33,883 nucleotides of DNA from a virus, in IMG/VR virus record IMGVR_UViG_3300046011_007459, positions 1-33,883 of that record, one strand, 5' to 3'. This document shows positions 3,167 through 26,180 of this stretch, one piece after another. How positions within the stretch are numbered: position 1 is the first letter of the stretch; the number at the start of each line of letters is the position of its first letter. The notes under the pieces are model-generated. The model was not told the DNA's origin, made no database searches, and was given only the letters and a program-made list of their open reading frames with translations. The position numbers and the translations under genes were made by a program.

Positions 3167-3952
3167 ATGAGTACGTCACTTGTCAAAGCTGACCAGCGCG
3201 ACCCGGTCGCACTTGGTCAGGTGCTTAGTCAGTCGGGCTATTTCGCTGACGCCAAGCAGGCCGCCCAAGCCGCGGTCAAGGTCATGGCCGGTGAGGAAGT
3301 CGGGCTTGGGCCTGTCGCATCCATGACCGGCATTCACATTGTGCAAGGCAAGGTCACGCTCGGGGCCAACATCATTGCCGCGCTTGTGCGCAGGCACCCC
3401 GACTACGACTACGACGTGACCGAGCACACCGACCAGGCGTGCGAAATCCGCTTCACATACAAGGGCAAGCCCGCGGGCACCTCGCGCTTCACCATGGACG
3501 ACGCGAGCAAGGCGGGGCTTCTCAAGTCACCGACGTGGAAGGCGCACCCGCGCAACATGCTCTTTGCCCGTGCCATGAGCAACGGCGCAAAGTGGTACGC
3601 GCCCGACGTGAGCGCAGGCGCACCGCTCTACACACCCGATGAGCTCGGGGCCGAGGTTGACGGCGAAACGCTTGAGGTTGTGGCGCTGCCGCCGCAGGAC
3701 GTAAGCCACGTCGCCGAGCCGGTTGAGACAACGCCGGAATACGTTGAGCCGATGCTTGAGGAATTGGCCCCGGCCACCGACGACTTTGACGGCAAGGGCG
3801 CGTTTATTGACCTTTGCGACGAGTACGGCGACGGCGCGACCAAGGACGCCTTTCGGGCGCTTGGCATCACATCCACCAAGGACGTCACGGCCGAGGCGGT
3901 GGCCAAGGTCAAGGCGACGCTTGCGCTCGGCGGCGAGGACGTGGCCGCATGA
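3167..3952 (+). CDS. recT: RecT-family single-strand annealing protein
   Basis: A 261-residue protein; ATG 3167 follows a GAGGG by about 7 bases. The N-terminal two thirds match the RecT family as seen in many actinophages: a helical segment with VMAGEEVGLGPVASMTGIHI, KVTLGANIIAALVRR, the DQACEIRFTYKG strand, FTMDDASKAGLL and PRNMLFARAMSNGAKWYAPD, then YTPDELG. The C-terminal 70 residues are acidic and end in a small helical domain. It pairs complementary single strands during phage recombination or replication. Its probable partner nuclease is encoded three genes downstream at 4444. It overlaps the next gene by ATGA. Confidence 0.87.
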   Translation: MSTSLVKADQRDPVALGQVLSQSGYFADAKQAAQAAVKVMAGEEVGLGPVASMTGIHIVQGKVTLGANIIAALVRRHPDYDYDVTEHTDQACEIRFTYKGKPAGTSRFTMDDASKAGLLKSPTWKAHPRNMLFARAMSNGAKWYAPDVSAGAPLYTPDELGAEVDGETLEVVALPPQDVSHVAEPVETTPEYVEPMLEELAPATDDFDGKGAFIDLCDEYGDGATKDAFRALGITSTKDVTAEAVAKVKATLALGGEDVAA

Positions 3953-5329: not shown

Positions 5330-5548
5330 ATGGCTCTACGAATCAACAAGCGCGATGGGTCCACGCTGCATGTGTCCTCGTGGGCCGCGTGGCGGGCGTT
5401 CTACCCGATGCATGCTCGCCGGCAATGCCCCGCGTGCGGTGGCGAGGGCTGGCAGGAGTGGTTTATTGAGGGTGGCAAGGACGCGCCCGACCGCTGGTTT
5501 GCCGAGCAATGCCGCGGGTGCCGAGGGCGCGGGTGGGTGTTTCCATGA
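5330..5548 (+). CDS. Small DnaJ-type zinc-ribbon protein
   Basis: A 72-residue protein with two CxxCxGxG-like knuckles: CPACGGEGW at about residues 33-41 and CRGCRGRGW at about 61-69, as in the DnaJ zinc-binding domain. The N-terminus has a short basic strand and an aromatic-rich segment (SSWAAWRAFYP). Such single-domain zinc-ribbon proteins are common in actinophage early regions; the role is unknown but nucleic-acid or protein binding is likely. It starts 4 bases after the nuclease gene and overlaps the next gene by ATGA. Confidence 0.7.
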   Translation: MALRINKRDGSTLHVSSWAAWRAFYPMHARRQCPACGGEGWQEWFIEGGKDAPDRWFAEQCRGCRGRGWVFP

Positions 5549-5883
5549 GTGACGCCGGCCAGCTGTCACTTGACCAGGCGCTTGCTGTCGTGAGCGACCA
5601 CGCCGACTACCAATGGGTCAAGCGTGCCCGGCGTGCGGTTGCGCACGTCGCGGAATGCAAGCCCACATTTACCGCCGATGACGTATGGGACGCGCTTGAC
5701 GCCGAGTACGACGTTGCAACCCACGAGCGCCGAGCCCTTGGCGCGGTCATGCGGTGGGCGACACGCCGCGGCATTTGCCACCCAACAGACGACTACACCC
5801 CGAGCCGCCGCCCCGAGTGCCACAAGCGCCCGGTGCGCGTGTGGGCGCGTGGCGAGTCGGGCGAAATCCGGTGGGCTGCCTAG
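5545..5883 (+). CDS. Conserved-style small protein, possible winged helix
   Basis: A 112-residue protein. A helical N-terminus is followed by FTADDVWDALDAEYDVATHERRALGAVMRWATRRGICHP and then a SRRPECHKRPVRVW strand-rich tail. The layout (helix, turn, recognition-like helix, then a beta wing) resembles short winged-helix proteins that are frequent in actinophage early regions, but I cannot name the family. It is inside the tightly overlapped early operon, 20 bp upstream of the Xis-like gene. Confidence 0.6.
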   Translation: MSDAGQLSLDQALAVVSDHADYQWVKRARRAVAHVAECKPTFTADDVWDALDAEYDVATHERRALGAVMRWATRRGICHPTDDYTPSRRPECHKRPVRVWARGESGEIRWAA

Positions 5884-5903
5884 TGACAACCGAAAGGGAA
5901 TCC

Positions 5904-6098
5904 ATGACCTCCCCCATTGTGGCCGCCGTGCCGCGTGTGGCGCTGACTCCCGAGGAAGCGGCGCGGTCGCTTGGCGTATCGCGCACATTCTTTGACGACC
6001 AGGTGCTTCCCGAGCTTGCCCACGTTCGGCGCGGCCGGCGCATCCTCGTGCCGGTCAAGGCGCTTGAGAAGTGGGCCGAAGCGAACATGGGGCGCTAA
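5904..6098 (+). CDS. Excisionase-like MerR/HTH-17 DNA-binding protein
   Basis: A 64-residue protein. ATG 5904 was chosen because a GAAAGGG lies 6-7 bases upstream; a GTG at 5883 is possible. Residues 12-64 form a typical winged HTH of the excisionase/HTH-17 type: LTPEEAARSLGVSRTFFDDQVLPEL, then VRRGRRILVPVKALEKWAE. These proteins recognise DNA next to attachment sites and steer the integrase to excision. The position just upstream of the integrase supports an Xis role. A transcription regulator role is the alternative. Confidence 0.75.
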   Translation: MTSPIVAAVPRVALTPEEAARSLGVSRTFFDDQVLPELAHVRRGRRILVPVKALEKWAEANMGR

Positions 6099-6295
6099 TG
6101 GCCGAGTCAAAGAACATTCACGCCGAGGAACGCACCAAAGAGATTCGCAGCCGCGTCAGTGTGCTCGCGTGGAATAACGCCGAAGGCATGCCGTCGTATG
6201 CCACTGACGAGGTCGTTGACGATATGCGGTGGCTGCTCAACGAAAACGAGCGCTTACGCGGTGCGCTGCTTATCTACACAGCGGTGAAGCATTGA
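6098..6295 (+). CDS. Hypothetical protein between Xis-like and integrase genes
   Basis: A 65-residue protein whose ATG overlaps the stop of the Xis-like gene by one base. It has a basic N-terminal helix, a central AWNNAEGMPSYATDEVVDDMRWLL and a leucine-rich end. No family was recognised. The stop overlaps the integrase TTG start (TTGA), so integrase translation is probably coupled to this gene. Confidence 0.6.
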   Translation: MAESKNIHAEERTKEIRSRVSVLAWNNAEGMPSYATDEVVDDMRWLLNENERLRGALLIYTAVKH

Positions 6296-7464
6296 GCACC
6301 CGACGCCACAAGCTTGAGCAGGGCATTGCGGTACGCCATGAAAAGGGTTGCCGCACCTACGGCGGTGGGCGTTGCAATTGCTCACCGAGCTACCAGGCGC
6401 GGGCGTGGTCTAATGCTGCCGGCAAGGAAGTGCGCCGCAGCTTCAAGACCAAGGCCGAGGCGAAGGCGTGGCGGGCACGCGCCATGGCGGGACACGTCGA
6501 CAAGCTAGCCGGTGCCACGAGCTCCCCGGTGCTTGGCGTGCTGGCCGATTGGGTCTTTGACGAGGCCGAGGCCGGCCGCCTGCTTAACCGCTCAGGCGAC
6601 GCCTTCAAGCCGAGCGTCATTCGGTCGTACCGCTCTACCTACTCGGTGCATATCGGCCCCGCCATTGGCAAGCGCCGCGTGGGCAGCGTGCGCCGCCGTG
6701 ACGTGCAGGCGGTCGTATCGGATATGACCGCGCAGGGACTAAGCCCGAGCACGGTGCGAAACGCGCTGCTGCCACTTCGCCTTATCTACCGCGTGGCAAT
6801 CCGCGACGAGCTCGGGGCCGCCACCTCACCCATTGAGGGCGTTGAGCTTCCCGCCGTGCGCGGAAAGCGCGAGCGCATCGCAAGTCCGGTTGAGGCCGCG
6901 TCGCTCATTGACGTGTGCGACGACTTTGACCGTGCCATATGGGCCACGGCGTTTTACGGCGGGCTCAGGCGCGGTGAGCTCATGGCGCTAGAGGTCGCAA
7001 ACGTCGACTTTGACCAGGGCGTGATTCGGGTCATGCAGTCATACGACCCCGGCAGCCGCAAGATGACCGCGCCAAAGAGCCGCGCCGGGATTCGCACGGT
7101 GCCCATGGTCAAGGTGCTCAGGCGCGAGCTTGCCGCTCACCTGATGCGCCGCGGCCAGCGCGGGGCGCTTATGTTCGCCCGGCCCGACGGCCGCCCCTTC
7201 TCGCCCGAGGCTACGTACAAGCGGTCGCGCAAGCGGTGGGACAACGCCAAGCTCGCGCACATCACAATGCACGAGTGCCGCCATTCTTTCGCAAGCATGA
7301 TGATTGCGGCCGGCGTCAACGCAAAGACACTTCAAGAAATCGGCGGGTGGTCGTCGATCGCCATTGTGTTTGACCGCTACGGCCACCTGATGCCTGGCGC
7401 ACGCGAGGAAGCTGCCGGGTTGCTTGAGGCATACCTAGACCGAGAAACGGCGGGCCGCGTGTAG
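6292..7464 (+). CDS. int: Tyrosine-type site-specific integrase
   Basis: A 390-residue protein from TTG 6292, which overlaps the previous stop as TTGA; a weak start would keep expression low. Residues 10-72 form the arm-type DNA-binding region with an AP2-like YQARAWSNAAGKEVRRSFKTKAEA motif and a small Cys cluster (C20, C28, C30). A SAM-like core-binding domain spans about 80-185. The catalytic domain shows Arg226 (FYGGLRRGEL), Lys262, His327 and Arg330 (MHECRHSFAS), Trp353 (GGWSS) in the His/Trp position and the nucleophile Tyr363 (FDRYGH). It integrates the phage at the tRNA-Ser site whose copy lies just downstream at 7523-7584. Confidence 0.95.
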   Translation: MSTRRHKLEQGIAVRHEKGCRTYGGGRCNCSPSYQARAWSNAAGKEVRRSFKTKAEAKAWRARAMAGHVDKLAGATSSPVLGVLADWVFDEAEAGRLLNRSGDAFKPSVIRSYRSTYSVHIGPAIGKRRVGSVRRRDVQAVVSDMTAQGLSPSTVRNALLPLRLIYRVAIRDELGAATSPIEGVELPAVRGKRERIASPVEAASLIDVCDDFDRAIWATAFYGGLRRGELMALEVANVDFDQGVIRVMQSYDPGSRKMTAPKSRAGIRTVPMVKVLRRELAAHLMRRGQRGALMFARPDGRPFSPEATYKRSRKRWDNAKLAHITMHECRHSFASMMIAAGVNAKTLQEIGGWSSIAIVFDRYGHLMPGAREEAAGLLEAYLDRETAGRV

Positions 7465-18314: not shown

Positions 18315-18413
18315 GTTCCGTTTACCATGCCGGCCAAAGAATACGCCGGTTTCCCCCGCGCCGCGTGATTGCATACCGCTGCAAGGTTCACCGCATCGGG
18401 GGTTACCGCTAAC

Positions 18414-19058
18414 ATGACCGACGAAACGGTTGACGAGGGCCAGGCGCCCGACGTCACCGAGCCCATGACGGGCAATGATGTGGCGCAGGACGCCACCCCG
18501 CAGGCGCAGGACGCCGCAGGGACCGAGGACCGGGCTTTCTCCGACAAGGCGCTTAAGGAAGCGCGGGCGGAAGCTGCCAAGTACCGCAAGCGCCTTCGGG
18601 AGCTTGAGGCGGTGCAGCAGCGACGCGAGGAAGCCGAGCTTACCGAGTCCGAAAGGCAGGCCAAGCGTTTGGCCGAGCTTGAGCAGGCAGTTTTGGAGCG
18701 CGACGAGCAGACCCGTCGGCTGGCGCTTGAAAGCGCCGTCGCCATGCGCAGCAACGCGCTTGGCATTGTCGACGCCGAGGTTGCCGTAAAGCTCTTGGAC
18801 CCCGGCTCGCTTGACTTTGACGAGGCCGGCCGGCCCGACTCGGAAAGCCTTGACCAGGCACTTAGGTCGCTTATCAAGTCCAAGCCGTACCTCAAGACTC
18901 AGCCCCCCGCAGCTAGTCCTGCCAATCCGGCCCGAGCCGAGCCGTTGGGTGAAACCGACGAGCAGCGGCGTTCGCGTCTTTTTGGCGGCGGCGGCGGAAT
19001 GTTTGACCCGAGCACGGCAAGCAGGCTTGGCGGCGGCGTAATTAACCCACAGGAGTAA
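18414..19058 (+). CDS. Capsid scaffolding protein
   Basis: A 214-residue protein with ATG 18414. It has an acidic disordered N-terminus, a long charged coiled coil (about 40-120: ALKEARAEAAKYRKRLREL ... ERQAKRLAELEQAVLERDEQ), an IVDAEVAVKLLDPGSLDFDE segment and a Gly-rich basic tail ending FDPSTASRLGGGVINPQE. This is the typical scaffold layout and it lies immediately before the major capsid gene. It organises capsid subunits in the prohead and is then removed; the MuF metallopeptidase could be a protease involved, but no evidence shows that. Confidence 0.87.
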   Translation: MTDETVDEGQAPDVTEPMTGNDVAQDATPQAQDAAGTEDRAFSDKALKEARAEAAKYRKRLRELEAVQQRREEAELTESERQAKRLAELEQAVLERDEQTRRLALESAVAMRSNALGIVDAEVAVKLLDPGSLDFDEAGRPDSESLDQALRSLIKSKPYLKTQPPAASPANPARAEPLGETDEQRRSRLFGGGGGMFDPSTASRLGGGVINPQE

Positions 19059-19064
19059 AGCCGC

Positions 19065-19916
19065 ATGGCATTCACTCAGGTTTCGGACATTCAGAGTCCG
19101 ACCGACTTTATTCAGAAGGTCTACGAGGACGCGCTTTTTGTTGCGCGTGAGTCCAACCTTATGTCGGGCCTCGTGACCAATTACACCGGGCAGGGCGTGG
19201 CCCCCCGCGTGTCGTCCGAGTATTCATCGGCCACCATTTCGGCCGTCAACGACGACGACGACCTTAGCTCGCAGTCCTTCAAGCCCACGGTGCTGTCGAC
19301 GCTGACGCCCGCCGAGGTGGGTGCTCAGTACCTTATTACCGACCAGCGCCTTGAGTCGGACCCCATGGGCGTGCAGCAGGCCGCCGCCCTTGAGCTTGGC
19401 TCGGCCATGGCCACCAAGATTGAGACTGACCTTGTTGGTGGGTTTGCCGGCTTTACGGGCGGCACGGCCGGCACGTCGGGTTCGGTGCTGACGTGGGGCC
19501 GTTTCTTTGCCGCCGTCGCGCAGCTGCGGGCGCAGAACGCCCCCGGCCCGTACTACGCGGTGCTGCACCCCTACCAGATTCACGACCTGGCCAAGGAAGC
19601 GGCACCGGCTGGCACCAACATGAACGCGCCGAGCTTCGGTGACGAGGTCATGCGTAACCGTTACTTCGGCATGGCTGCGGGCTGCATGATTTTCGAAAGC
19701 AGCAACATCGCCGCCGGCACCGCGTCGGTCGCGGGCATTTTCTCGCCCATGGCCCTTGCGCTGGACATTCGCCGCGCACCGCGCCTTGAGCCCGAGCGTG
19801 ACGCTTCCCGCCGTGCCACCGAGCTCAACCTTTCGGCCGTCTACGCCCACGGCGTGTGGCGTCCGAAGTTCGGTGTGAAGCTGATTTCGACCACCAACAC
19901 CGCGCCCACTTCGTAG
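19065..19916 (+). CDS. Major capsid protein (HK97 fold)
   Basis: A 283-residue protein with a strong AGGAG before ATG 19065. It has the N-terminal arm and P-domain look of compact HK97-fold capsid proteins of actinophages: SPTDFIQKVYEDALFVARE, AEVGAQYLITDQRLESDP, AAALELGSAMATKIETDLVGGF, then YYAVLHPYQIHDLAKEA and a LNLSAVYAHGVWRPKFGVKLIS end. There is no obvious delta domain, so a separate scaffold is needed, as provided upstream. It is followed by a putative decoration protein. Confidence 0.92.
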   Translation: MAFTQVSDIQSPTDFIQKVYEDALFVARESNLMSGLVTNYTGQGVAPRVSSEYSSATISAVNDDDDLSSQSFKPTVLSTLTPAEVGAQYLITDQRLESDPMGVQQAAALELGSAMATKIETDLVGGFAGFTGGTAGTSGSVLTWGRFFAAVAQLRAQNAPGPYYAVLHPYQIHDLAKEAAPAGTNMNAPSFGDEVMRNRYFGMAAGCMIFESSNIAAGTASVAGIFSPMALALDIRRAPRLEPERDASRRATELNLSAVYAHGVWRPKFGVKLISTTNTAPTS

Positions 19917-19925
19917 GTAGCGGCT

Positions 19926-20312
19926 ATGGCAAACGAAGTTCAGACACTTGTGCTTGCGGTGGATGCCACCGCCGATGACGTCGTGAGCTTTAAGTGCTCA
20001 GACGCGGGCGGTGCAATCACGGTGCTTGAGGCGTATGCGGTTAACCACGCTACGACCTCGGGCACCGCGACCTTCACCCTCGCGCTGCACAAGCGCACCA
20101 CGGCCGGCACGGTTATCGCCGGCACGGTGGCTGCCGCCATTGGTGGCACCGCTGACCATTGGACCGACACGCTGCCCAAGGCGTTCACCATCGACAGCAC
20201 CTACCAGGTGGTTGACGACGGCGAGTGCCTTTCGGTGGCGCAGGCTGCCGTTGACGGTGGCAGCCCGACGCGGGCCAAGGTCGTCATTCACTACGTGCAG
20301 GGCAAGGCGTAG
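19926..20312 (+). CDS. Putative head decoration or minor capsid protein
   Basis: A 128-residue beta-rich protein, with many Thr/Ala/Gly residues and alternating strands (ITVLEAYAVNHATTSGTATFTLALHK, VIAGTVAAAIGGTADHW, AKVVIHYVQGKA). Its place directly after the major capsid gene fits a decoration protein. No specific fold was recognised. It is the last gene before the strong terminator at 20325. It is also a candidate target for the glycosyltransferases encoded downstream. Confidence 0.6.
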   Translation: MANEVQTLVLAVDATADDVVSFKCSDAGGAITVLEAYAVNHATTSGTATFTLALHKRTTAGTVIAGTVAAAIGGTADHWTDTLPKAFTIDSTYQVVDDGECLSVAQAAVDGGSPTRAKVVIHYVQGKA

Positions 20313-20324
20313 CGAATGAGCATG

Positions 20325-20392
20325 GGCGGCAGGGATAGCCGACGGGCGACAAGCGTGAGCCCCCGCACGCTTCCCTGCCGCCTTCTCTTTTT
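20325..20392 (+). terminator. Strong nested-hairpin Rho-independent terminator
   Basis: GGCGGCAGGGA (20325-20335) pairs perfectly with TCCCTGCCGCC (20372-20382), an 11-bp stem. Inside it AAGCGTG (20351-20357) pairs with CACGCTT (20366-20372) around an 8-base loop. TTCTCTTTTT follows (20383-20392). It lies after the capsid genes and 12 bases before the first glycosyltransferase start. It would end or attenuate rightward transcription so that the sugar cassette and tail genes get less RNA than the capsid genes, unless they have their own promoter. Confidence 0.85.
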
Positions 20393-20404
20393 CGGGGCGA
20401 CCGC

Positions 20405-21598
20405 ATGGGGGCGTGCGTGAGGATTTTGTGGCACTCCAATGCGCCGTGGGCCAGCACCGGCTACGGCGTGCAGACTCAGCTTTTTGCGCCGCGCCTGCGC
20501 GACCTCGGGCACGAGGTTGCCATTTCGGCGTTCTACGGCCTTGAGGGCGGAAGCATTGAGTGGGCCGGCATGCCGGTCTACCCCAAGTGCTTTCACCCCT
20601 ACGGGCTTGACGTCATCGCCAACCACGCCGATGACCACAAGGCCGACATTGTCATCACCCTTGTTGATGCGTGGGTGCTTGATGACCAGGCGATTACCAA
20701 GAGCGGTGCCAAGTGGGTGCCCTGGTTCCCGGTCGACCATGACCCGATTCCCGACCCGGTCATTGCCAAGGTGCGCAAGGCGTGGCAGCCGCTTACCTAC
20801 TCCAAGCATGCGCAAAAGCTTGCCGAGGACGCCGGGCTTGGCGCGATGTACGTGCCCCATGGGGTCGACACCACGACCTATGCCCCCCGCGACAAGGGCA
20901 AGGCCAAGCAGGCGTTTGGCATTGACCCCGACACCTTTGTGGTGGGGATTGTGGCGGCCAACAAGGGCACGCCCTCGCGCAAGGCGCTGCCCACGCAATT
21001 TGAGGCGTTTGCCCGCTTCCACGAGAAGCACCCCAATTCGGTGCTTTACCTGCACTCGCACACCGGCCCCCAAATGGAAGGGTTAGACCTCGTTTCGGTG
21101 CTGCACAAGGTCGGCGTTCCCGAGTCGGCCGTAAAGGTGTGCAACGAGTACATGAACCTCATGGGGTACGACCCCATGCTTATGGCCGCGCTCTACAACG
21201 CAATGGACGTGCTTTGTAGCGCGACCATGGGTGAGGGCTTTGGCGTCCCCATCATTGAGGCGCAGGCGTGCGGCACCCCCGTGATTGTGACCGGGGCGAC
21301 CGCCATGCCCGAGCTTGTAGGCGGCGGGTGGGTCGTTGACGACTTTGAGCGCGTGTTTACGCCCATGAACGCCTATCAGTACATGCCGAGCGTGGCCGGC
21401 GTCACCGACGCCCTTGAGAAGGCGTACCAGGCACGCGGCGACAAGAACATTGCCCTTGCCTGCCGCGCCATGGCCGAGCCGTACGACGCCGACGCCGTCA
21501 CCGCAAAGTATTGGAAGCCCGCCCTTGAGGTGATGCACGCTCGGCTTTTTGCCGACAAGAGTGACGACGCGCCGGCCGTGGAGGTCATCGCGGCGTGA
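20405..21598 (+). CDS. GT4-type glycosyltransferase
   Basis: A 397-residue protein; ATG 20405, with GTG 20420 as an alternative. It is a GT-B fold, GT4-like: the N-terminal acceptor domain has an RILWHSNAPWASTGYGVQT loop, and the C-terminal donor domain has VGIVAANKGTPSRKALPTQFEAFARF and the EX7E motif Glu277...Glu285 in GEGFGVPIIEAQACGTPVIV. It transfers a sugar from an activated donor to an unknown acceptor. It overlaps the GT2 gene by GTGA, so the three sugar genes form one unit. Its site between capsid and connector genes suggests glycosylation of the virion. Confidence 0.85.
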   Translation: MGACVRILWHSNAPWASTGYGVQTQLFAPRLRDLGHEVAISAFYGLEGGSIEWAGMPVYPKCFHPYGLDVIANHADDHKADIVITLVDAWVLDDQAITKSGAKWVPWFPVDHDPIPDPVIAKVRKAWQPLTYSKHAQKLAEDAGLGAMYVPHGVDTTTYAPRDKGKAKQAFGIDPDTFVVGIVAANKGTPSRKALPTQFEAFARFHEKHPNSVLYLHSHTGPQMEGLDLVSVLHKVGVPESAVKVCNEYMNLMGYDPMLMAALYNAMDVLCSATMGEGFGVPIIEAQACGTPVIVTGATAMPELVGGGWVVDDFERVFTPMNAYQYMPSVAGVTDALEKAYQARGDKNIALACRAMAEPYDADAVTAKYWKPALEVMHARLFADKSDDAPAVEVIAA

Positions 21599-22209
21599 CG
21601 GTGTCGGTTGTCATTCCCACTATCAAGGGGCGCGAAGGGCTTTGCGACCGCACGGTTGCGGCCTTCCGCGCATCGACTGACGCCGATTTGCAGCTAATCG
21701 TTGTGCGCGAGCGCATGACCATCGGCAAGGCGTGGAATGACGGTGCTGAGGCCGCCACGGGTGACTACCTCATGCTTGCCGCTGATGACGTGATGCCGCA
21801 CCCCGGTTGGCTTGAGGCCGCAACCGAGGCCGCTGACGCCGGCTACTACCCCGCCCCGCGCATCGACACCGATGACGGCCAGGTGCTTGCGACCGGCTCA
21901 ATGGGCGGCGGCTGGTTGCTGACCGGCTGCGCCGATTACGCGCCGGTTGCCTCGTCGCAATTCCCGTTCATGCGCAGCTACGTGTGGCGCGAGCTCGGGC
22001 CGAGCCTTGAAATTCATTACTTCGCTGACGACTACCTTGCCGCCCGGGCTCGTGCGCTTGGGCTTACGGTGGTGTACCGCGAGGGCTACCGGCTCACCCA
22101 CCTTGAGGGCACCCACGGCCGTGACGAAATGGTGCGACGGTCCATGACCGACCGCTTGGCCTTTGAACAGTCAATGACGACCGGCGAGTGGGCAAAGGTG
22201 GCCGCATGA
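21595..22209 (+). CDS. GT2-type glycosyltransferase
   Basis: A 204-residue GT-A fold protein, shorter than many. VSVVIPTIKGREGLCDRT is the nucleotide-binding N-terminal strand and loop, AADDV (Asp64, Asp65) is the DxD metal-binding motif, and a GWLEAATEAADAGYYPAPRI and an IHYFADDYLAARARALGL segment follow. It is GTGA-coupled to the GT4 gene and ATGA-coupled to the epimerase. Without a TM segment it is a soluble enzyme, consistent with protein glycosylation in the cytoplasm. Confidence 0.82.
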   Translation: MTVSVVIPTIKGREGLCDRTVAAFRASTDADLQLIVVRERMTIGKAWNDGAEAATGDYLMLAADDVMPHPGWLEAATEAADAGYYPAPRIDTDDGQVLATGSMGGGWLLTGCADYAPVASSQFPFMRSYVWRELGPSLEIHYFADDYLAARARALGLTVVYREGYRLTHLEGTHGRDEMVRRSMTDRLAFEQSMTTGEWAKVAA

Positions 22210-23174
22210 GCCCGCGGGTGCTGATTACCGGCGCGGCGGGGTTCATGGGCAGCCACCTTGCCGACCGCTACGCATCGCTTGGGTGGGACGTGGTCGCGCT
22301 GGACAACCTCACCGGCCATGTGGTGTCGGTCACCCATCCGAGCTTTCACACCTTTCTTGTGGGCGACGCCCGTGCCCTTGAGGCCAAGCATGTGGCAAGC
22401 GTGGATTTGGTCATTCACGCGGCAAGCCCGGTGGGTGCGGCGGGCATCCTGCCCATGCAGGGCACCGTTGCCGGCCAAATCGTTTCCGCCGCGCAGCGTG
22501 TGGCCGATGCGTGCGTGATTGCCGGTGTGCCGGTGGTGCATATCTCCACGAGTGAGGTCTACGGCATCACGGGCCGCGCAAGCGAGGTTGACCCCTGCAC
22601 CGTGCCTGCCCGCTACTCGGCCCGGCTTGAGTACCAGGCGGGAAAGATTGCCGCCGAGCAGGTCTTTGGCGCGTCGATTGCCCGCGGCCTTCGCGCCGTG
22701 CAAATCCGCCCGTGGAACATGGCCGGCCCGCGTGAGGCGCGTGAGAAGGGGTTTGTCATGCCGCGCATGGTCAGCCAGGCGCTTGCCGGCGAGCCAATCA
22801 CCGTCTTTGAGGGCGGCAGCCAGGAACGCGCATTTACCTCGGTATGGGACGTGTGCCGGTTCATCACCGACTACCTGCCCGAGGACTTTGACGAGTGGCG
22901 CGGGCAGCCCTACAACGTGGGTGCCGAGCACAACCGCACCACTATCAACCAGCTTGCCGCGCTCGTGCGCGAGGTCACCGAATCAGACTCGCCCATTGTC
23001 CACACCTCGGGCAAGCGCGTCTTTGGCGAGCGATATGAGGAAGCCTCAGCCGGCACCAAGCTTCCCGATTCCGGCCGCGCCCGCGACCTTGGTTGGACCC
23101 CCGAGGACGACCTCACCGCAATCGTCGCCCGCACCGCTGCTGAACACCTTGCCCCCGAGGAAGTGGCCGCATGA
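22206..23174 (+). CDS. NAD-dependent NDP-sugar epimerase/dehydratase (extended SDR)
   Basis: A 322-residue protein. The Rossmann motif ITGAAGFMGS (Gly9, Gly12, Gly15) binds NAD. The catalytic residues are ISTSEVYG (Ser114-Ser116 region) and Tyr143-Gln-Ala-Gly-Lys147 (YxxxK). It resembles UDP-glucose 4-epimerase, GDP-mannose dehydratase and UDP-glucuronate decarboxylase; the substrate is not deducible. RPWNMAGPR and PYNVGAEHN are typical of the extended family. It would prepare the donor sugar for the two upstream glycosyltransferases. It overlaps the connector gene by ATGA. Confidence 0.87.
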   Translation: MSPRVLITGAAGFMGSHLADRYASLGWDVVALDNLTGHVVSVTHPSFHTFLVGDARALEAKHVASVDLVIHAASPVGAAGILPMQGTVAGQIVSAAQRVADACVIAGVPVVHISTSEVYGITGRASEVDPCTVPARYSARLEYQAGKIAAEQVFGASIARGLRAVQIRPWNMAGPREAREKGFVMPRMVSQALAGEPITVFEGGSQERAFTSVWDVCRFITDYLPEDFDEWRGQPYNVGAEHNRTTINQLAALVREVTESDSPIVHTSGKRVFGERYEEASAGTKLPDSGRARDLGWTPEDDLTAIVARTAAEHLAPEEVAA

Positions 23175-23731
23175 GTCGTGCAGGAATGGCAACCCTTATC
23201 AATCGCGTGCGCACGCTGACCTATGCCGGCACCGCCGAATACACCCGCGGCACGGTGTCCTATTGGTCAGACGACCACATTGAGGAAATCCTTGACCGCC
23301 ACCGCATCGACCTGGTGCGGCACAAGCTCATGAGCGAGCCGACCTATACGGGTGGCGGCTCGGTCGTCTACACCCGCCAGCGGTCGGCATACGGCAACCT
23401 TGAGCAGGGCACCGCGCTTTATGTGGAGGATTCAGTAGGCGACGACCGCGGCACCGCGCTTTGGTCGGCCGACTACCAGCTTGGAATTTTTGAATTCACG
23501 AGCGACCAGCGCGGCACGGCGCTCTACCTCACCGCCAGGTCATACGACCCCTACGGCGCGGCCGGCGAATTGCTTGAGGAATGGGCCGCGTCCGAGGCGA
23601 GGTCGTTTGACTTCTCCACCGACGGCCAAAACTTCGCCCGCAGCCAAAAGGCGGAAGGCTTGCGCGAGCAGGCGCGCATTATGCGAAAGCGCGCCAGGCT
23701 CAAGGTCAAGAGCTTGAGGACAAACAGCTAA
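23171..23731 (+). CDS. Head-tail connector, adaptor-like
   Basis: A 186-residue protein. Its N-terminal helices (MATLINRVRTL, IEEILDRHRIDLV) and the beta-rich middle, with a helical C-terminal end (REQARIMRKRARLKVK), match the head-tail adaptor type (HK97 gp6/SPP1 gp15) in size and place. It attaches below the portal ring. It starts inside the epimerase stop. Confidence 0.75.
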   Translation: MSRAGMATLINRVRTLTYAGTAEYTRGTVSYWSDDHIEEILDRHRIDLVRHKLMSEPTYTGGGSVVYTRQRSAYGNLEQGTALYVEDSVGDDRGTALWSADYQLGIFEFTSDQRGTALYLTARSYDPYGAAGELLEEWAASEARSFDFSTDGQNFARSQKAEGLREQARIMRKRARLKVKSLRTNS

Positions 23732-24888: not shown

Positions 24889-25061
24889 GCGAGAAGTTTA
24901 GGGCGCTCGTTGGCCTTGATTACCCGCCCGGCAAGCGTGCCGAGCCGGGTGACGTGGTTGGCGACCTGCCCGATTCATCGGTGAAGTGGCTTCGCAAGCA
25001 GGGGCTTATTGAGCCCGCGGGCGCGGCCCCCTCCCCCACCCCCAAGGACGGTGACAAGTGA
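24885..25061 (+). CDS. Hypothetical 58-residue protein
   Basis: A small protein, ATGA-coupled upstream and GTGA-coupled downstream. It reads EKFRALVGLDYPPGKRAEPGDVVGDLP, then SVKWLRKQGLIEPAGA, and a Pro-rich tail. The layout (a short SH3-like beta part and a helix) recurs between tail terminator and tail tube genes in many actinophages; its role is unknown. Confidence 0.65.
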   Translation: MSEKFRALVGLDYPPGKRAEPGDVVGDLPDSSVKWLRKQGLIEPAGAAPSPTPKDGDK

Positions 25062-25759
25062 GCCCGAGCTTTATTCACGGCAAGGACGCGGTCGTTTATC
25101 AGGACGGCAACGACCTCACCGGCTACCTGCGGTCGCTGTCGAATTCCGCCGAGGTCGAAACGGCCGAGTCGACGACCTTTGCCGACGACGACAAGACCTA
25201 CGTGCCCGGCCTGGCTGACGCCACGCTTTCGGCCGAGGGCCTTTTTGACGCCACCTTTGACGGCGAGCTTTCGACCATTACCGGCTCGGGCACCAAGAGC
25301 GTGTGGAGCGTGTATCCGGCCGGCGACGCGGTCGGGACGCCTGGCCGCGGATACTCGCTGGACGTCACTTCGGCCGAGCGCACCGCGGAAATCGGTGACG
25401 TGGTCATGGTGAGCATTGAGGGGCAGTCCTCAGTGGGCACCGAGCCAATCCTTTCCCACCACGCGCTTGCGCAGCGCACCGCGTCGGGCACCGCAACCGT
25501 CGTGGACGGCGCGGCGAGCTCAAGCAATGGCGGGGTGGGCTACCTGCATGCGACGGCCGCAAGCGGCACCGTCGTGGTCAAGGTGCAGCACTCAAGCGAT
25601 AACAGCACCTACGCCGACCTCGTCACCCTCGGGACCATTACGGCTTCGGCCAGGTCTTTTCGCACGACGGCTGCGGGCGCAGTCAACCGCTACACGCGGC
25701 TTGTTTACACAATCACGAGCGGCACGGCGACTTTCGTTGCCGGCTTTGGCCGCGGTTAG
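25058..25759 (+). CDS. Major tail tube protein A, with C-terminal extra domain
   Basis: A 233-residue protein from GTG 25058. Residues 1-130 have the tail-tube pattern: HGKDAVVYQDGNDLTGYLRSL, EVETAESTTFADDDKTYVPGL, LFDATFDG, VYPAGDAVG and AERTAEIGDVVMVS. A Ser/Thr/Ala-rich beta domain (about 140-233) follows, which may be surface-exposed as in other phages. It is paralogous to the 136-residue protein at 25770, which lacks this extra domain. It is a good candidate for the glycan acceptor. Confidence 0.8.
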   Translation: MSPSFIHGKDAVVYQDGNDLTGYLRSLSNSAEVETAESTTFADDDKTYVPGLADATLSAEGLFDATFDGELSTITGSGTKSVWSVYPAGDAVGTPGRGYSLDVTSAERTAEIGDVVMVSIEGQSSVGTEPILSHHALAQRTASGTATVVDGAASSSNGGVGYLHATAASGTVVVKVQHSSDNSTYADLVTLGTITASARSFRTTAAGAVNRYTRLVYTITSGTATFVAGFGRG

Positions 25760-25769
25760 GAGATAGCTA

Positions 25770-26180
25770 GTGCCGACGTTTTTTCATGGTAAGGACGCCG
25801 CCGTTTACGTCACTGACAGTGGCGGGAGCGAGCGCAACCTCACCGAGTACGCCACTTCGGTGGGCCTTCCGGTTGAGGTGGAAACCGCCGAGGTGTCCAC
25901 GCTTGGCGACGACGACAAGGTGTACGTCACCGGCCTGCGCGACCGCACCATTTCCATTGAAGGCAAGTGGGACGCCACCGTTGACGGCTACCTGTCGGGG
26001 CTGCTTGGCGGCACCGCTCGCGGGTGGAAGGTGTTTCCGGCTGGCTCGGCTGCCGGCCGCCCGTTTTACTCGGGCTCGGCCATTCTCACCAGCTACGAGG
26101 TGACGGCCGAGATTGGTGACGCGGTCATGTGGTCGGCCGAGTGGCAGAACAGCGGTGCCGTGACCAGGGGCACCGTGTAA
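25770..26180 (+). CDS. Tail tube protein B, paralogue without extra domain
   Basis: A 136-residue protein from GTG 25770, AGGAGA upstream. It is collinear with residues 1-130 of the preceding protein: FFHGKDAAVYVTDSG, VEVETAEVSTLGDDDKVYVTGL, GKWDATVDG, VFPAGSAAG, ILTSYEVTAEIGDAVMWSAEW. Same fold and same motifs, but the sequences have diverged and there is no C-terminal domain. The two could form a mixed tube or one could be a specialised end piece. Confidence 0.8.
   Translation: MPTFFHGKDAAVYVTDSGGSERNLTEYATSVGLPVEVETAEVSTLGDDDKVYVTGLRDRTISIEGKWDATVDGYLSGLLGGTARGWKVFPAGSAAGRPFYSGSAILTSYEVTAEIGDAVMWSAEWQNSGAVTRGTV

Follow-up and report, generated by a model that had tools for sequence, protein, structure and literature searches.

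We describe a phage gene module that, as read from its sequence and at slightly better than even chances in our estimation, glycosylates a head protein from within the late operon and is preceded by a structured RNA in the 3′-UTR of the capsid genes. The window, by which we mean the whole stretch of DNA analysed, is a single virus record of 33,883 bases with integrase, RecT and exonuclease genes on its left and terminase, portal, scaffold, capsid, tail and tape-measure genes on its right, a gene content that identifies the source virus as a temperate siphophage. All parts from the scaffold gene to the connector candidate lie on the plus strand. The head genes run from a scaffolding protein (18369–19058; PHROG head scaffolding, with a Pfam Phage_scaffold match of E 1.3e-6 that falls under the curated cut-off) through the major capsid protein, MCP (19065–19916; Pfam Phage_capsid_4, E 8.7e-8; PHROG major head protein), to a probable capsid cement, or decoration, protein of 128 amino acids (19926–20312). 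The RNA and then genes for a GT4-type glycosyltransferase, a GT2-type glycosyltransferase and an extended SDR sugar-nucleotide enzyme follow.

The three enzyme genes overlap by 4 nt at each junction (GTGA/ATGA), and their Pfam matches lie in one run, which bears out the original prediction of a tightly coupled unit of GT4, GT2 and NDP-sugar enzyme. The prediction had also drawn the cassette as insulated, and this does not hold at the 3′ end, where the stop codon of the SDR gene runs into the next head-tail gene, which begins at 23171. That gene (23171–23731) has no Pfam or PHROG match and is a candidate head-tail connector by position, as it precedes the adaptor gene in relatives. At the 5′ end, the hairpin said to separate the cassette from the major capsid gene is real, but the gene directly upstream of it is the probable cement gene, so that the hairpin stands behind MCP and cement together. 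The observation as first made is thus partly confirmed. Overall and third-position G+C content of the cassette are like those of its flanks, so composition gives no sign of recent acquisition.

The product of 19926–20312 falls in no Pfam or PHROG family at confidence, and a sequence search against the PDB returned no significant match. Its gene, however, lies directly 3′ of the MCP gene in 55 of 58 dereplicated MCP loci, and its AlphaFold (AF2) model (pLDDT 90.7) is all-beta and jelly-roll-like. The two top structural matches of the model are the capsid of Helicobacter phage KHP30 (Z 9.0) and the trimeric cement protein of KHP40 (Z 8.6), followed further down by the jelly-roll cement protein of a Bordetella phage (3j4u, Z 7.8) and by capsid chains of Pam1 and GP4 (7.4); such Z values are middling and are nearly matched by unrelated folds. 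Predicted fold and gene position together make this a probable capsid cement protein and, beside MCP, a candidate acceptor for the glycosyltransferases. A P-T/S motif at the MCP C-terminus was considered as a glycosylation site linked to GT4 and set aside, as it also occurs in a locus where no GT4 was seen. Three loci (L009, L016 and L018) carry the cement-like gene twice in tandem behind MCP.

The first enzyme is the constant part of the module, as seen in relatives from IMG/VR. GT4 (20417–21598), of the GT-B type, matches Pfam Glyco_trans_1_4 (E 1e-11, 45.7 bits against a cut-off of 27) and phrog_2170 (E 9e-33), and a four-sequence alignment shows the E-x7-E motif in the form of an EGFGVPIIE-type sequence. 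Its start is most likely GTG 20417 rather than the alternative ATG 20405, since the start of a relative aligns there and GGGGG precedes it. In a census seeded with MCPs, GT4 was present in 49 of 50 informative dereplicated loci, directly after the MCP-cement pair in 43, behind a connector or adaptor gene in 4 and farther away in 2; because the seed MCPs were taken from GT4-bearing phages, these counts overstate the linkage. Two distant MCP relatives lack both the cement gene and GT4, and one close MCP relative has no GT4 within 5.5 kb. Distances among MCPs and among GT4s correlate (rho 0.41, against a permutation maximum of 0.24), indicating moderate codivergence, and GT4 homologues are also found behind MCPs of at least three other PHROG families (phrog_10, phrog_283 and phrog_1357). 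GT4 was fused to methyltransferase domains in all three long cases tested. A search of genome contigs with GT4 returned fragments from several bacterial phyla, a spread that leads us to assign no host to the virus of the window. The GT4 gene of one relative, L199, appears to be split at its start, just past the codons of the conserved N-terminus, by a group I intron (3347–3524; RF00028, 62.2 bits).

Between GT4 and the connector, gene content varies from phage to phage. The interval ranges from nothing, as in L203, which has GT4 alone, to 6 kb in L052. Among 85 variable ORFs from this interval, Pfam assigned, among others, 13 to GT2, 8 to radical SAM, 7 to GT34, 6 to Methyltransf_24, 4 to UDP-galactopyranose mutase, 4 to GT4 and 2 to epimerase; the ORFs were picked mechanically, so that a few may not be genes, and the sample left out most loci with a trio like that of the window. 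Several methyltransferase families are present, while the radical SAM, possible hydrolase and lectin-like genes are not glycosyltransferases. In L029, a UDP-galactopyranose mutase gene (5505–6512) sits inside a phage head operon. Such variety, together with the solitary GT4 of L203, would also be expected if the site behind the capsid genes were an insertion-tolerant, mixed moron region whose enzymes have unrelated roles and are held together by position. We regard this as improbable, given that GT4 is nearly constant and codiverges with MCP and that the cargo is rich in glycan enzymes. Relatives keep GT4 and swap the genes that follow it, and under head-protein glycosylation, the reading we prefer, surface glycans would probably differ from phage to phage.

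The second enzyme (21595–22209) is a GT2-type glycosyltransferase with a GT-A fold, matching Pfam Glycos_transf_2 (E 2.5e-7, 31.2 bits against a cut-off of 23.3). The 13 best structural matches of its AF2 model (pLDDT 91.7) are polypeptide GalNAc-transferases, at Z 16.6–18.0, which is compatible with a protein acceptor as far as a predicted fold can tell. Polysaccharide enzymes follow from Z 16.5 downwards, and the wall and polysaccharide glycosyltransferases K4CP, WrtF, TarS and RmlT are close too. In the alignment, the place of the DXD motif reads ADD (or SDD), so that the canonical first Asp is absent. A search of genome contigs with GT2 found no relatives.

The proximity of the GT2 model to wall and polysaccharide enzymes, and the presence of an integrase in a temperate phage, would suit an alternative in which the enzymes alter cell-wall glycans of the host during infection or lysogeny, blocking superinfection or aiding release. 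We consider this unlikely, though the strongest of the other explanations for the enzymes. None of the three has a transmembrane segment, which counts against it and also sets the module apart from serotype conversion of the Gtr type, with its membrane flippase and membrane-bound glycosyltransferase. Moreover, the genes lie in the head operon, where 4-nt overlaps link them to a structural gene, and more than one capsid family is followed by a GT4.

The third enzyme (22206–23174; Pfam Epimerase, E 6.5e-34) more likely starts at ATG 22206 than at the alternative GTG 22188. The original prediction had called it an NDP-sugar epimerase. Its membership in the extended SDR class is sound, with a conserved Rossmann motif and Y-x3-K and the sequence STSEVYG, but this names only a class: the nearest solved enzymes in the PDB are UDP-glucuronate decarboxylases (E ~4e-21) and UDP-sugar epimerases, all at low identity, and we describe it as decarboxylase/epimerase-like. 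UDP-glucuronate decarboxylases (UXS) combine the SDR catalytic residues with an active-site Arg in an RKP motif. This position reads KLP both in the window and in the homologue from Microcystis phage Mae-JY09, in a part that the UXS alignment stopped short of.

Sugar-nucleotide enzymes also occur in phages that modify their DNA, such as Thanatos and RB69 (PMC12838424), which brings up the alternative that the transferases add sugars to bases of the phage DNA, as happens in T4 or Thanatos. This we hold to be very improbable, as a scan of window ORFs, in a record that may be incomplete, found no hydroxymethylase or nucleotide-modification gene and the cassette is positioned in the late head operon.

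Virion glycosylation thus gives the best reading of the enzymes, as the earlier observation had proposed: GT4 is tied to MCP and cement in dozens of phages and is found again after MCPs of other families, the cargo includes many glycan-tailoring genes, and the GT2 model lies nearest to polypeptide GalNAc-transferases. In the model that we favor, the capsid and cement proteins are made first. GT4 would then glycosylate a protein of the head, with the cement protein or MCP as the likeliest acceptor, while GT2 might add a further sugar or modify a second site (the order of action is a guess) and the SDR enzyme would supply a sugar nucleotide absent from the host pool. The earlier suggestion of a disaccharide on a virion protein is only a guess, for in relatives GT4 stands by itself or has many more genes beside it.

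The hairpin between the cement gene and GT4 proved to be more than the strong nested terminator for which it had been taken. The region 20324–20398 matches the int-alpA RNA family of Rfam (RF02996) at 43.8 bits, against a gathering cut-off of 35.8, while other Rfam families gave sub-threshold matches only. It folds at -46.4 kcal/mol (z -3.5 relative to shuffles) into an 11-bp GC stem, P1 (20325–20335/20372–20382), which encloses two short helices, P2 (20338–20340/20345–20347) and P3 (20353–20357/20366–20370). P1 is followed directly by TTCTCTTTTT, and the hairpin in the window does have the stem and U-tract of an intrinsic terminator. The terminator-like, U-rich tract (20383–20392) lies between P1 and a purine strand (20394–20398, GGGGC) that can pair with the loop of P3 (20359–20363, GCCCC). 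A simple terminator scan, which takes loops of 3–8 nt only, did not list the hairpin.

One layout often recurs in the spacer past the cement gene of relatives: P1 encloses, in this order, the joint [AC]UAG, hairpin P2, the joint GA[AC]AA and hairpin P3, and its closing strand is followed by a purine run. Across 39 distinct sequences, in an alignment that was fitted to the model and hence leans towards it, 92% of cells pair and 169 cells show double changes, compared with 53 in shuffles; sliding the pairing partners by 1 to 3 columns abolishes the signal. The loop of P3 and the purine run that comes after P1 are complementary (mean score 17.7 versus 13.9 for permuted sequences, sd 0.45, a level reached in 0 of 500 permutations), and we take this as evidence for a pseudoknot between the two.

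The classical reading, by which the hairpin is an ordinary intrinsic terminator and its likeness to int-alpA RNA incidental, draws on the GC stem and the tract behind it, on a U-rich tract after P1 in the close relative L013 and on Pontimonas phage phiPsal1, where the corresponding position has a terminator-like hairpin and a T-run. In our judgement this is improbable: the Rfam score is above cut-off, P1, P2 and P3 covary together with the pseudoknot, and the U-tract is rare in relatives. At least five T in the 8 nt after P1 occur in only 2 of 34 relatives, so the tract is not a conserved feature, and the spacer hairpins of relatives were for this reason rejected as U-tract terminators. Our preferred assignment of the window hairpin as an int-alpA RNA leaves room for a second role, as this RNA may additionally terminate transcription in the window. 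As to the original picture of a terminator-insulated cassette, its hairpin and U-tract stand, whereas insulation was its weak part: the RNA is conserved and pseudoknotted, its U-tract is mostly absent in relatives, and at its 3′ end the cassette overlaps with the structural gene that follows.

The RNA mostly follows the capsid genes rather than GT4. A model of the capsid-linked RNA built from 11 copies matched 47 loci, a few of them weakly and all on the coding strand. These copies come right after a capsid gene or another head gene near it, or else in the spacer that precedes GT4; the model gave no match in 886 kb of control loci. With a broader model, a copy was found in 46 of 91 loci, and several loci that have no recognisable copy show a plain strong hairpin in its stead. 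The start of the RNA mostly falls 2–48 nt past the stop codon of the cement or MCP gene, while its distance to GT4 ranges from an overlap to 824 nt. The idea that the RNA belongs to GT4 was rejected for L190, L199, L029, L219 and L037, where GT4 is displaced by 198–824 nt and the RNA keeps its place 3′ of the cement gene. Departures from the usual arrangement include L023 and L024, where the gene before the RNA matched a connector profile instead, L073, where the preceding gene is 87 nt upstream, and L070, where a weak match lies between the MCP and cement genes. The long spacers between RNA or hairpin and GT4 in L029 and L044 hold small ORFs with paired cysteines, resembling zinc ribbons.

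In our sample of Gammaproteobacteria, int-alpA RNA scored above cut-off in 34 of 274 genomes. Like the window RNA, the classical copies have three helices and the UAG and GA[AC]AA joints and lie just 3′ of a mobile-element gene; in several, judged by eye from the alignment, the P3 loop and the tail appear to be complementary. They differ in that they follow integrase genes (8 of 19 sampled upstream neighbours) or others such as HTH, Ogr/Delta and RadC genes, whereas the window copy follows capsid and cement genes. The consensus structure from cmscan shows no pseudoknot, in contrast to the candidate one described here. A position 3′ of a gene looks general for this RNA. The window copy lies between capsid-cement genes and GT4, not between integrase and alpA as the family name implies; by the model, which does not require the name context, it is a member of the family in another context, and the capsid position is a new one as far as we have found in the literature, where our searches met the name of this RNA only as a list entry.

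Placed just behind the capsid and cement genes, the pseudoknotted int-alpA-class RNA would most likely act as a capsid 3′-UTR element, blocking 3′–5′ decay or favoring termination or processing, so that structural mRNA would exceed enzyme mRNA. A wider and more tentative proposal, which we find possible but rather doubtful, is that the window belongs to a widespread uncultivated siphophage lineage with a swappable glycan island directly after the capsid genes, in which GT4 is constant, head glycans are varied and an int-alpA pseudoknot RNA sets the ratio of capsid to enzyme; int-alpA RNA would then be a general 3′-UTR regulator of mobile-element genes. If true, head glycans would be common and fast-changing in environmental phages, made by a cassette that is tied to the capsid gene and whose parts can be swapped; this would be relevant to phage surface chemistry and particle recognition. 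The orphan int-alpA RNA would likewise gain a clear place, at the capsid 3′ end, along with a pseudoknot absent from the cmscan consensus.

Virion glycosylation has precedents in phages. For the mycobacteriophages Che8, Corndog and Myrna, glycosylation of virion proteins, capsid and tail ones among them, is reported, and clusters of phage-encoded glycosyltransferases are present (PMC12363180); glycosylation of mycobacteriophage virions has also been reported elsewhere (PMC11256854). Corndog gp38 is named among the genes concerned and serves as a precedent. The N-terminus of Che8 gp108 and the GT2 of the window both match phrog_14775. The cluster gp108–110 of Che8, unlike that of the window, is found near the right end of the genome, in a stretch whose annotation includes no SDR, and neither BLASTP nor hhalign detected homology of GT4 to gp108 or of GT2 to gp109 or gp110. 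The module is therefore of an already known virion-glycosylation kind that differs in its genes and setting, and the RNA is of a known family in a new setting.

Two other phages resemble the window in gene order. Pontimonas phage phiPsal1 has MCP, the hairpin with a T-run, GT4, GT2 and neck genes in succession, but its MCP is outside the MCP family of the window, a methyltransferase replaces the SDR enzyme, and no int-alpA match is present. Mae-JY09 shares the gene order of the window and has each of the three enzymes (53% identity for GT4, 55% for GT2 and 32% for SDR) as well as the RNA, and the block from portal to tape measure is syntenic at ~32–63% identity. Our literature search found no functional study of either phage. 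The listed host of Mae-JY09 (L001, PP395641) is Microcystis, yet the phage shows close synteny to the present group of phages, which is high in G+C, and the host assignment may deserve a check. Farther along the operon, the window holds two homologous major-tail-protein-like genes in tandem (25058–25759 and 25770–26180), each of which matches both of the copies in Mae-JY09.
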